Assembly (NCBI GenBank): GCA_019638595.1
Contig: JAHBTJ010000018.1
Span: forward strand, 100,831 to 164,830
Reading direction: 5' to 3'
From: Chitinophagaceae bacterium
GTDB taxonomy: Bacteria > Bacteroidota > Bacteroidia > Chitinophagales > Chitinophagaceae
Length of the DNA: 64,000 nt
In this document: piece after piece, positions 18,814 to 63,934 of the stretch
Layout of the letters: every line of letters begins with the position of its first letter
Position numbering within the stretch: position 1 is the stretch's first letter
Position numbers and translations under genes: made by a program
The notes under the pieces: generated by a model
The model's input: only the letters and a program-made list of their open reading frames with translations
The model's database searches: none
Told to the model about the DNA's origin: nothing

Positions 18814-19712
18814 GTCTTTCTTTTATTAATGCTATTCATTATTTCCCGGAACAATGTACCGGGTAAAGGCCCATTGTTAAAATCATTAAGCGTATCTTCC
18901 AATTCTTTACGATCGGATGCCCCGATCACGATCGTAAAATCCTGTGGTATTGATAATAAGAACCTGTGTGCAAGCTCATGCAAAGCCATACCATGCCGGG
19001 CGGCAATATCATTTACTATTATAGCCGTATCAATATATCTCTTATCAAGCCATTCAGGGCGATTGGTTGTAAATGCCTCATAATTACTGCCCAGCAATCC
19101 CATATGCAGCGGGCTGGCGGCAAAATATTGTATCTGGTTGTTATAACAAACGGGAAGGTTTTCTTCCAGTGCGGTAACAGAACAGGCGTTAAGCCGGCTA
19201 AACTCCATCAACACATCAAATAGCCCCGGTTTCAGGTAAGGTTGCAGCCATAATGGCGGGTTGCCGCCAATCCCTATTTTCCGGGTATAGCCTTTTATTT
19301 TAAATGTCTGGAGAGTGTTAATTACCCTTTCCATTTCTGCAGGATCAATGGCGTCCGGATCATGCAGGAATAAAATATCCAGCTCAGGTACGCCCAATGT
19401 GCGTAGGCTTTGTTCCACACTGTGCTGCATCCCGGCATTGCTGTAGTCATAATGTGCAACATTTACAGCATAACTTTTAAGCCTGCCTGCTTTAGTGCTG
19501 ATCTTTGGTCTTTCGCCATGCCACAAACGAAGCGCTTCGCCCACATACGCTTCCGCATCACCATATGCCGGGGCGGTATCAATGGCACTGATCCCGCTTT
19601 CAAGCGCCATAAGCAAAGTGTTCACTGATTCCCGCGGATTTACTTTCCCCCAAACGCCTCCCAGGCCGGCGGTGCCAAGCACATATCGCTCTTTAGTTTT
19701 TGTTGCAGGCAT
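18801..19712 (-). CDS. Aldo/keto reductase, aldose 1-dehydrogenase-like
   Basis: A 303-residue cytosolic protein. The AKR tetrad can be read: D in AIDTAPAYG, Y in the same segment, K in ISTKAG and H in FLHDPDAID. The C-terminal TIVIGASDRKELEDTLNDFN is the nucleotide-binding end of the barrel. Its overall pattern resembles D-threo-aldose (L-fucose) 1-dehydrogenases, which oxidise a sugar to the 1,5-lactone with NAD(P)+. It is the first gene of the AKR, enolase-like, SSS, mutarotase and DUF5054 series, with overlapping or short gaps. The inferred role is the first step of non-phosphorylating deoxysugar breakdown. Confidence 0.85.
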   Translation of the reverse strand: MPATKTKERYVLGTAGLGGVWGKVNPRESVNTLLMALESGISAIDTAPAYGDAEAYVGEALRLWHGERPKISTKAGRLKSYAVNVAHYDYSNAGMQHSVEQSLRTLGVPELDILFLHDPDAIDPAEMERVINTLQTFKIKGYTRKIGIGGNPPLWLQPYLKPGLFDVLMEFSRLNACSVTALEENLPVCYNNQIQYFAASPLHMGLLGSNYEAFTTNRPEWLDKRYIDTAIIVNDIAARHGMALHELAHRFLLSIPQDFTIVIGASDRKELEDTLNDFNNGPLPGTLFREIMNSINKRKTCTQ

Positions 19713-20668: not shown

Positions 20669-20742
20669 TCGGGAAGACAAGATTCGAACTTGCGACCCCT
20701 TGCACCCCATACAAGTGCGCTACCGGGCTGCGCCACTTCCCG
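20669..20742 (-). tRNA. tRNA-Pro (anticodon GGG)
   Basis: The minus strand folds into a full cloverleaf: 7-bp acceptor CGGGAAG/CTTCCCG, D stem GCGC/GCGC, anticodon stem CTTGT/GCAAG with loop ATGGGGT (anticodon GGG at positions 34-36), T stem GCAAG/CTTGT with loop TTCGAAT, and discriminator A. The CCA end is not encoded. The C1-G72 pair and A73 fit bacterial tRNA-Pro. It reads CCC and CCU codons. The integrase remnant about 560 bp downstream suggests its 3' end may once have served as an attachment site. Confidence 0.97.
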
Positions 20743-62094: not shown

Positions 62095-62471
62095 AAAGGG
62101 TAATTGATTGTACAATGCATGCACAGACTTATTAAGCATAACCGGGTTTAATGCTATGCTAAATAATTGAAGCGGCATGAACATGATTTTACGAACGGTT
62201 GCGGGCTCCTTTTTATTTTAATAACATTGAAGGTTAAACGACAAATAACTTATGATAATCCTGAACGCCTGCCCCCTGATATCCCACCCGCGATACAGCC
62301 TGTATAAACTTTAACCATTACCCAGGGCAAACGCATCTAAACTGATATATGCTCATTCATCCCTCGGGGTATAGGCGTCAACTTAAGGAACAGGAGCCGT
62401 AAAATGCCGCGAAAAGGTAATATCATTTAGTTAAGGAATATACATGTTAAGCAGGGTTTAGAGCCCGGATT

Positions 62472-62518
62472 GCTGATTTAAAGACCCTAAATGGATGCTC
62501 CGGGTGCGGTCTTTTTTA
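62472..62518 (+). terminator. Possible long-loop terminator in the non-coding block
   Basis: GCCCGGA pairs with TCCGGGT (one G-U) across a loop of about 23 bases, followed by GCGGTC and TTTTTT. On the plus strand it could close a short RNA starting after 62200. No coding frame accompanies it. The stretch 62095-62470 shows no other recognisable feature. Confidence 0.3.
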
Positions 62519-62533
62519 TACAATCAGGGGTAA

Positions 62534-62925
62534 CGCCTATGGCGCATCATTGAAAAATACCCTCTTTGTTTACAAACGGGTTGTGCCGATGGCACAGAAA
62601 AGCATTTCATTCGCCTGGGACACACACCTGAAACATGCCGCATAGCGGCTACCTGCTTGTAGAAGAAATGCCGGACGTTTTATTTTGCCCCGTCAGGGGC
62701 TACCCTTAATATAAAGTGATCTGTGAAATACAGAAAAATATTCCATCCTGATGGAAGGACTATCTCCCCTTTGCTAACCCGAAAATGGATATTCGAACCA
62801 GCCTGTCGTGGGCACGGTTCAGGCCCACGGCCATAAACGTTCGAAACCTGCGAAAATGCCGCTCCTACGGAGCTTTGTCAATGCGTTACTGTATAATTGC
62901 CACCAAACTTTCGCGTCTATGACGC
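62534..62925. repeat. Array of eight mini-hairpins at about 52-bp spacing
   Basis: Short palindromes at centres near 62539, 62589, 62643, 62693, 62748, 62818, 62867 and 62919: CGCC-TAT-GGCG, TGTGCC-GAT-GGCACA, GCCGC-ATA-GCGGC, GCCCC-GTCA-GGGGC, TTCCAT-CCTG-ATGGAA, CGTGGGC-(9)-GCCCACG, GCTCC-TAC-GGAGC, GCGTC-TAT-GACGC. Spacings are 50, 54, 50, 55, 70, 49 and 52 bp. The stems differ in sequence but conserve pairing, length and mostly tri- or tetranucleotide loops. No gene is in this block; 62926-63180 shows nothing else convincing. Confidence 0.7.
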
Positions 62926-63180
62926 TATAAAATTGTGGATATGGCAGCCTTCAAAATAGCGTTTCGAACACTTATGGCCCCACGGCTTAAGTTGCCCGAT
63001 GGAACAAATGAACCATCTGCTTTAGAGAAACGGGAAACAATATCAGATAACCAATAGTTACTGTACTTTTTTAGATGCGTTTGCCCTGAACCATTACCAC
63101 CCGCAAAAAATTCATACATTTGCAGCGTTTACGGATAATAATTCTTCTATCCTTCCGGCATGGATGTGAAAAAAGAATGT

Positions 63181-63216
63181 AGTTTTCCACATAACTATAG
63201 CCAACTGTGGAAAACT
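63181..63216. promoter_or_regulatory. Two inverted DnaA-box-like sites
   Basis: AGTTTTCCACA (63181-63191) and TGTGGAAAACT (63206-63216) are perfect reverse complements, 14 bp apart. TTTTCCACA matches the relaxed DnaA box TTWTNCACA. Only two such sites are seen, so this is not by itself an origin; it could also be an operator or hairpin upstream of the 63335 gene. Confidence 0.4.
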
Positions 63217-63774: not shown

Positions 63775-63862
63775 TTTTCCCTTTTTACCAGGTCTGGCAT
63801 GTTGAATATTTAAGACCTGTGATTTCCCCTGACATTACCAAAAATAAAACACCGTTTTTTTA

Positions 63863-63934
63863 TACCGTTTTTTAACGGTAGCTGTCTACCGTTATTTAGC
63901 GGTACTGCTATACCGTTAAAAGACGGTTTTTTTG
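63863..63934 (+). repeat. Three 24-bp units, each a TACCGTT hairpin
   Basis: Units begin at 63863, 63887 and 63911, exactly 24 bp apart. Unit 1 is TACCGTT-TTTT-AACGGTA, unit 2 TACCGTT-ATTT-AGCGGTA (one G-U pair), unit 3 TACCGTT-AAAA-GACGGT with a T run. Each is a hairpin with a 4-base loop; the last has a terminator form. Any left arm can also pair with any right arm, so alternative folds are possible. Nothing else is seen in 63775-64000; the minus-strand frame at the very end is only 30 codons and is not called. Confidence 0.7.

Follow-up and report, generated by a model that had tools for sequence, protein, structure and literature searches.

The 64,000-nucleotide stretch of a Chitinophagaceae genome analyzed here (the window; contig JAHBTJ010000018.1, our C10, of assembly GCA_019638595.1) holds at positions 62534-62925 eight short hairpins, which we propose, with a probability of about 0.7, to include a module of a transposase system of the Y1 (HUH) type: the Y1 proteins would read hairpins as folded single-stranded DNA and cut near a neighboring tag, moving or copying hairpin-bounded segments, and hairpin modules would then have become passengers in elements with terminal inverted repeats (TIRs), the copy in the window having been hit by a smaller element. 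The Y1 part of this mechanism, binding and cutting included, is proposed from association, and the evidence for the TIR part consists of inverted repeats, target duplications, dispersed copies, and, for the inner element, an empty site. One element is nested within the other, target duplications and dispersed copies are seen, a module stands beside a Y1 gene both in the genome itself and in a relative, and hairpins are enriched around such genes.

The initial annotation of this DNA had reported eight stem-loops as a periodic array, and all eight are present, as follows with two of their linkers:
62534-62544, plus strand: hairpin 1, module, forward; 4-bp stem in the window, with a fifth pair present in 16 of 18 aligned copies
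62569-62581, plus strand: hairpin 2 linker, TTTACAAACGGGT, with many copies reading CTACAAACRGGT instead; of the pattern CTACAAACRGGTW
62582-62596, plus strand: hairpin 2, module, forward
62637-62649, minus strand: hairpin 3, module, inverted
62650-62662, minus strand: linker of hairpin 3, TACCTGCTTGTAG, whose minus-strand tag is CTAC
62687-62700, minus strand: hairpin 4, module, inverted; the site of stem variation among copies
62741-62756, unstranded: hairpin 5, with a 7-bp stem and a 2-nt loop; no unit linker seen
62808-62828, unstranded: hairpin 6, with a loop of 9 nt; shares bases with the inner element's target site
62861-62873, plus strand: hairpin 7, GCTCC-TAC-GGAGC, within the inner element
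62913-62925, plus strand: hairpin 8, GCGTC-TAT-GACGC, within the inner element

Hairpins 1-4 form a module of two forward and two inverted hairpins (hp1> hp2> <hp3 <hp4), and most of their units share a common linker and foot, namely TTTTTCTACAAAC(A/G)GGTA, then the stem, a TAT-type loop, the returning stem, and ATAAT. A search of the genome for the linker pattern CTACAAACRGGTW alone gives 31 sites, when a reversed control pattern gives 1. Among the 24 distinct sites examined (30 of the 31 were fetched), which were picked by the linker and not by pairing, 15 are fully paired and five have one mismatch, when random places give 1.2% and 9.8%, respectively; three of these sites appear unrelated (L290, L291, and L311), and at another (L303) the hairpin sits further downstream.

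The association with transposases can be read in the genome itself, where five Y1 (HUH) transposase matches were found. The best of these genes (C50:280128-280592; protein of 155 aa) is bordered by hairpins 1-2 at one end and by the complete module directly upstream, beyond which comes a fragment of a second Y1 copy, and in a relative (G004) the module stands just before the start of a Y1 gene that is 96% identical. Both Y1-side modules can be aligned to the copy in the window over hairpins and linkers alike, with differences at hairpin 4 and in some loops. Other loci in relatives likewise show hairpin arrays adjoining Y1 (HUH) transposase genes.

Two further observations were made beside such genes. 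Next to the C50 gene, a sequence (gatatgctggatttaccgtgccattgatat...) was seen by eye to recur in direct orientation about every 165 bp (L143:800-1300). In another genome (G023:C218; L123 and L136), a Y1 gene is accompanied by a long tandem row of near-identical TTGCTCC-gat-GGAGCAA hairpins with TTTTTCTACCAAG linkers, which is the same kind of unit, tandemly amplified with one stem.

The density of hairpins was evaluated around the best 80 of 579 relatives of the Y1 proteins, retrieved with scan patterns that contained part of the HH motif; by record titles, 73 of these 80 are from Bacteroidota, the rest being from Nitrospira, Ignavibacteria, Methylococcaceae, two Balneolaceae-type organisms, and two other bacteria. 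Their 152 flanks of 300 nt hold 324 perfect mini-hairpins against 19.6 in shuffled sequence (sd 4.2; maximum of 30 in 100 shuffles), a 16.6-fold enrichment, and among loci with two flanks, 71 of 72 have at least one hairpin within 300 nt and 70 of 72 at least two. Hairpin density falls from 9-10 per kb near the genes to background within about 1 kb (0.4-0.6 per kb at 1-1.5 kb), distances being accurate to some tens of bases and the gene end being set at one default place for most loci; sequence outside open reading frames (ORFs) and more than 1.5 kb from Y1 genes has 1.45 hairpins per kb, against 9.30. The hairpins are also polar with respect to a tag at up to 16 nt: among 342 hairpins, the arrangements CTAC-hairpin or hairpin-GTAG account for 142 counts and the reverse for 13. 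When GTAG or CTAC was used as the anchor and pairing was ignored, an adjacent hairpin was found at 142 of 477 tags near the genes, at 19 of 1,489 far from them, and at 18 of 477 in the wrong polarity. Finally, 34 Y1 loci were collected from the genome and its relatives, of which 23 have the motif Y---Q--HH, nine have no ORF found by script, and two lack the motif; flanking hairpins occur at all 23 loci with the motif (22 genes, as L265 repeats L144). These results bear on a rival explanation, namely that the palindromes are unread by proteins and spread passively in TIR elements through ordinary transposases, their pairing being kept by recent copying or quasipalindrome correction. It would fit with the position of all eight window hairpins inside TIR elements and with the near invariance of homologous stems of hairpins 1-3, but it leaves unexplained the enrichment around Y1 genes, the tag polarity, and the hairpins on both sides of the genes, and we consider it unlikely.

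In the mechanism that we propose instead, a Y1 protein would recognize folded single-stranded DNA by a short perfect stem, a loop of 3-4 nt, a foot, and a CTAC-type tag, and would cut near this tag, so as to move or copy the segments that hairpins bound. As recognition would be based on shape, the sequence of the stems may be free to drift between families provided that pairing persists. TIR elements would have taken up the modules and spread by other transposases, making the window copy a passenger, and the outer element would then have been struck again by the smaller inner one.

The variation among stems only partly matches what the initial annotation had made of it, which was that different stems with kept pairing betray compensatory change and that selection for structure is likelier than copying. 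Copying is plain, since a search of the genome with the hairpin region gives 49 matches, counting the region itself, many of which are copies of the two TIR elements. Different stems with kept pairing are indeed found between hairpin positions, between Y1 families, and among copies of hairpin 4; among homologous copies of hairpins 1-3 they are not. In an alignment of 18 module copies, whose rows were picked from arrays seen and lean toward intact modules, hairpins 1-3 are 99% paired with G-U counted as a pair, and none of their 16 pairs has changed on both sides. Hairpin 4 is the only one of the four whose stems change with pairing kept (GCCCC/GGGGC, GCCTC/GAGGC, and GCCCGC/GCGGGC); in several other copies it is disrupted or absent, and it was left out of the pair count because it is misaligned, the script column being wrong or empty for C12, G003, and outer_L004. 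Across hairpin positions, pairs covary among 22 units chosen for pairing, and stems that differ but still pair are also seen at the sites picked by their linker. Between families, the 342 hairpins, likewise picked by pairing, show 53 inner five-base stems, of which GTCCC, ATCCC, GTTCC, and GCCCC make up 219, and the 60 gene-proximal hairpins from 75 loci, again picked by pairing, show 19 stem types.

The initial annotation had also envisaged a role as RNA or cruciform DNA. The partner proposed here as most likely is a single-strand-DNA transposase rather than an RNA function. That the hairpins are RNA elements, such as a small RNA or an array of attenuators or terminators, under selection in transcripts would agree with their nature as stable, short, intergenic stem-loops, with the covariation between positions of units chosen for pairing, and with the deviations from the commonest pair in hairpins 1-3, which number 10 cells in the alignment: seven G-U and three without pairing. 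Against this, Rfam 15 gives nothing in the region at gathering level, the only match in 62200-63200 having an E-value of 4.8 and lying far below its gathering score (over the whole window, the sole match at gathering score is a tRNA at 20669-20742). Stems with one mismatch near Y1 genes have 24 G-T against 20 A-C among 81, which is no clear sign of RNA wobble; moreover, both unit orientations occur within one module, and the units lie inside mobile elements. An RNA function is weakly disfavored by these observations, and we hold an RNA array to be a very improbable account of the region.

As a row, the hairpins are real and above chance, yet they are not a single array. In 62534-62925, four perfect stems of 5 bp or longer with a 3-4 nt loop were counted against 0.69 in dinucleotide shuffles, a count that misses a fifth perfect stem at the edge of the stretch and that 1 of 1,000 shuffles reaches; with loops of 2-5 nt there are seven against 1.35, again reached by 1 of 1,000 shuffles. 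Stems of at least 6 bp taken alone are not above chance in the same stretch (one counted, equaled in 148 of 1,000 shuffles). The hairpin region is the densest 450-bp stretch of the window (six), another near 18,830-18,900 having five. The short loops first described hold for six of the eight hairpins, with 3-4 nt, the others having 2 nt (hairpin 5) and 9 nt (hairpin 6). What repeats is the structure and not a fixed sequence, as had been proposed, and the exclusion of a CRISPR stands, as there is no direct-repeat family in the array; a tandem repeat was also rejected for the hairpin region by a repeat search. The periodicity withstands scrutiny less well: a row exists, but it falls into three parts, and its regularity is partly coincidental because of nesting, hairpins 1-4 being one module, hairpins 5-6 belonging to the outer element only, and hairpins 7-8 to an inserted element of 147 bp.

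Two non-autonomous TIR elements, one nested in the other, make up the region; the outer resembles miniature inverted-repeat transposable elements (MITEs). Their features are as follows:
62313-62322, unstranded: left target-site duplication of the outer element, AACCATTACC; the same 10-mer stands at 63089-63098
62323-63088, unstranded: outer TIR element, 766 bp, non-coding, MITE-like; contains all eight hairpins and has dispersed copies
62323-62341, plus strand: left terminal inverted repeat, 19 bp, 100% complementary to 63070-63088
62824-62831, unstranded: left target-site duplication of the inner element, CCCACGGC, 8 bp; repeated at 62979-62986, with L004 as the empty site
62832-62978, unstranded: inner TIR element, 147 bp, with its own inverted repeats (I2); carries hairpins 7 and 8
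62979-62986, unstranded: right target-site duplication of the inner element, a repeat of CCCACGGC
63070-63088, minus strand: right terminal inverted repeat of the outer element, 19 bp, 19 of 19 complementary to the left repeat
63089-63098, unstranded: right target-site duplication of the outer element, AACCATTACC, 10 of 10 identical to the left copy

Three copies of the outer element start within 1 base of the same place, at 92% identity (L003), 97% and 93% in two pieces (L004), and 96% (L002); L002 lacks the right end and L004 lacks the inner element. By eye, the target duplication matches at 9 of 10 positions in L003 and L004, and none was seen in a further copy (L021). The ORF list has no ORF of at least 60 aa wholly inside the outer element. 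A search of the genome for an autonomous parent covered 20 TIR-like sites (at most three mismatches) with 1.5-kb flanks, and no transposase was recognized between paired ends; nor was a clean empty site of the outer element found in G004, where a different sequence occupies the place. The inner element has 21 further stand-alone matches in the genome at 91-97% identity (one of only 121 bp), besides its copies within outer elements, and two of its copies (L005 and L008) likewise have 8-bp duplications by eye. Many small deletions, several at hairpin positions, were noticed by eye in one outer-element copy (L003; G000:C3:89391-90126).

The four-hairpin module is also carried by a second element family of about 330 bp, an end sequence of which lies in the window:
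62373-62386, plus strand: end sequence AGGCGTCAACTTAA of the second, ~330-bp family; 29 exact occurrences in the genome, itself included

Among the loci fetched, this family, with end sequence ATAGGCGTCAACTTAA, has nine complete copies of 329-332 bp, and no target duplication was seen by eye. At three loci (L069, L027, and L082), the sequences beyond the ATAGGCGTCAACTTAA ends are partly inverted repeats of one another, as if the insertion had been made into palindromes.

How many of the eight hairpins belong to the Y1 system is a separate matter. A model of the unit, trained on 22 units chosen for pairing that included copies of hairpins 7 and 8, finds at least 143 places at E ≤ 1 in the genome (among the 150 of 2,630 candidates that were scored). 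In a scan of relatives with this model, as suggested at the outset, 11 of 37 have units at E ≤ 0.1, or 12 of 38 when the genome itself is counted, a distribution that is patchy even inside the genus. It may be that only hairpins 1-4 are tied to the Y1 system and that the inner element with hairpins 7-8 is unrelated, as their linkers differ and the model matches them weakly or misses them; on the other side, their stems and loops are of equal length, and GCTCC-TAC-GGAGC itself is found within 300 nt of Y1 genes (L242, L246, and L250). We give this narrower assignment somewhat less than an even chance. The initial annotation's allusion to interspersed palindromes of this very kind in Bacteroidota is confirmed, hairpin 7 being exactly such a sequence.

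Several observations weigh against a Y1 system as the reader of these hairpins. There is no Y1 match on the window's own contig, and a Y1 match occurs in 25 of the 37 relatives, when units of this type occur in 11; moreover, the matches of the unit model in one of these 11 (G026) show no hairpin on reading. In the window, hairpin 8 scores weakly (E 0.14; C10:163717-163765), hairpin 7 is not listed by the unit model among the 150 of 2,630 candidates scored, and hairpins 5 and 6 lack the unit linker. Hairpins 1-3 have no two-sided covariation among homologous copies, so that within the family recent copying would look the same as selection on pairing. Lastly, the choice of the Y1 set (part of the HH motif, best 80 of 579) favors one subclass, and the control with other Y1 genes is nearly empty, consisting of two loci without the motif, one of them perhaps a fragment, both with hairpins.

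Seven of the Y1 proteins were combined into a profile, which matches transposases of the IS200/IS605 type with solved structures, ISHp608 among them, and five of five proteins tested pass NF033573; two of the five match the NCBIfam family REP_Tyr_transpos, both below its cut-off. The motif Y---Q--HH, present in 76 of the best 80 of 579 proteins, is the stated signature of TnpA-Y1 subclass 1.2 in the consulted parts of a 2018 survey (Quentin et al. 2018, PMC6006769), which describe this subclass as generally devoid of repetitive extragenic palindromes (REPs) and of typical terminal secondary structures. According to the same parts, the survey's automatic REP search required GTAG or GTGG and either a short hairpin, its stem 7-20 nt long, or a long form with a bulge (PMC6006769), so stems of 5 bp would probably have escaped it. 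Under the REP rule, the module lies within 1 kb of a Y1 gene and has copies elsewhere in the genome; the window module, whose stems are of 4-6 bp, lacks the fully paired stem of 7-20 nt that should have GTAG or GTGG on its 5' side at a distance of 0-2 nt. When hairpins 3 and 4 are read on the minus strand, the first base of the stem is also part of GTAG, and the foot of hairpin 2 has no GTAG. A literature search that covered mainly the text of open-access papers recognized nothing on hairpins beside subclass 1.2 genes, and the passages seen of a study of RayT in Chryseobacterium make no mention of hairpins (PMC11194056). Both this genome and G008 (L145 and L255) also have a more distant Y1 gene that shares the motif and is flanked by other hairpins, CCCCCAAC-loop-GTTGGGGG and CAACCC-loop-GGGTTG. 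More tentatively, and as a possibility rather than a probability, subclass 1.2 proteins might constitute a Bacteroidota-wide REP system that reads shape, tag, and loop but not stem sequence, with several stems per gene, and whose modules have repeatedly been taken up by TIR elements.

Elsewhere in the window, a 24-bp tandem repeat of 2.4 copies, which also makes inverted repeats, was noted at 63861-63918 (TACCGTTTTTTAACGGTA).

These observations tie a class of Bacteroidota palindromes, without a published name that we could find, to a subclass of transposases that has been described as mostly free of such structures. They provide hairpins that are ready substrates for a binding and cutting assay. 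In addition, mobile DNA of two kinds is seen to be layered at a single site, one kind carrying the apparent recognition sites of the other. Like MITEs, the elements of the window have TIRs, target duplications, many copies, and no coding capacity; unlike them, they have the hairpin module of another transposase system aboard, and no autonomous partner was found in their own genome. With IS200/IS605 elements (IS608 and ISDra2), the system shares a related Y1 transposase and subterminal hairpins, as far as the consulted passages of PMC8266576 go, and it differs by passenger modules inside TIR elements and, at the loci that were read, by inverted hairpin pairs flanking the gene on either side. 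The proteins agree with TnpA-Y1 subclass 1.2, as characterized in the parts seen of the survey, in Y---Q--HH, WQ, DHxH, a length of about 150 aa, few copies per genome, and occurrence in Bacteroidota; the difference is that mini-hairpins, which may or may not count as typical IS200 structures, flank 71 of 72 loci here.

The closest likeness in hairpin architecture may be sought in REPs, bacterial interspersed mosaic elements (BIMEs), and their TnpA-REP (RAYT) proteins, or REPtrons, for which the consulted portions of PMC6006769 and PMC8266576 describe short palindromes, partly in inverted pairs, around a Y1 HUH gene, as well as dispersed copies and several hairpin types per gene; the REPs of Stenotrophomonas maltophilia, in the same portions, share the perfect stem with a 3-nt loop. 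For other TnpA-REP proteins, REPs are reported there to be cut at CT, with the tetranucleotide helping to choose the site, and a perfect 8-bp stem with a 3-nt loop serves as substrate (PMC8266576), which may be taken as a model for the present hairpins and not as proof. The stems here are mostly of 5-7 bp (324 of 342 hairpins), against the survey's 7-20, and the tags are CTAC on the 5' side or GTAG on the 3' side (142 counts), GTAG on the 5' side having 10 counts when overlap with the first stem base goes uncounted. REP systems as such are already known; what is new is that REP-like hairpins accompany a subclass whose members have been described as generally having none, and that these hairpins combine short perfect stems, the opposite polarity of the tag when there is one, and several different stems within a module.
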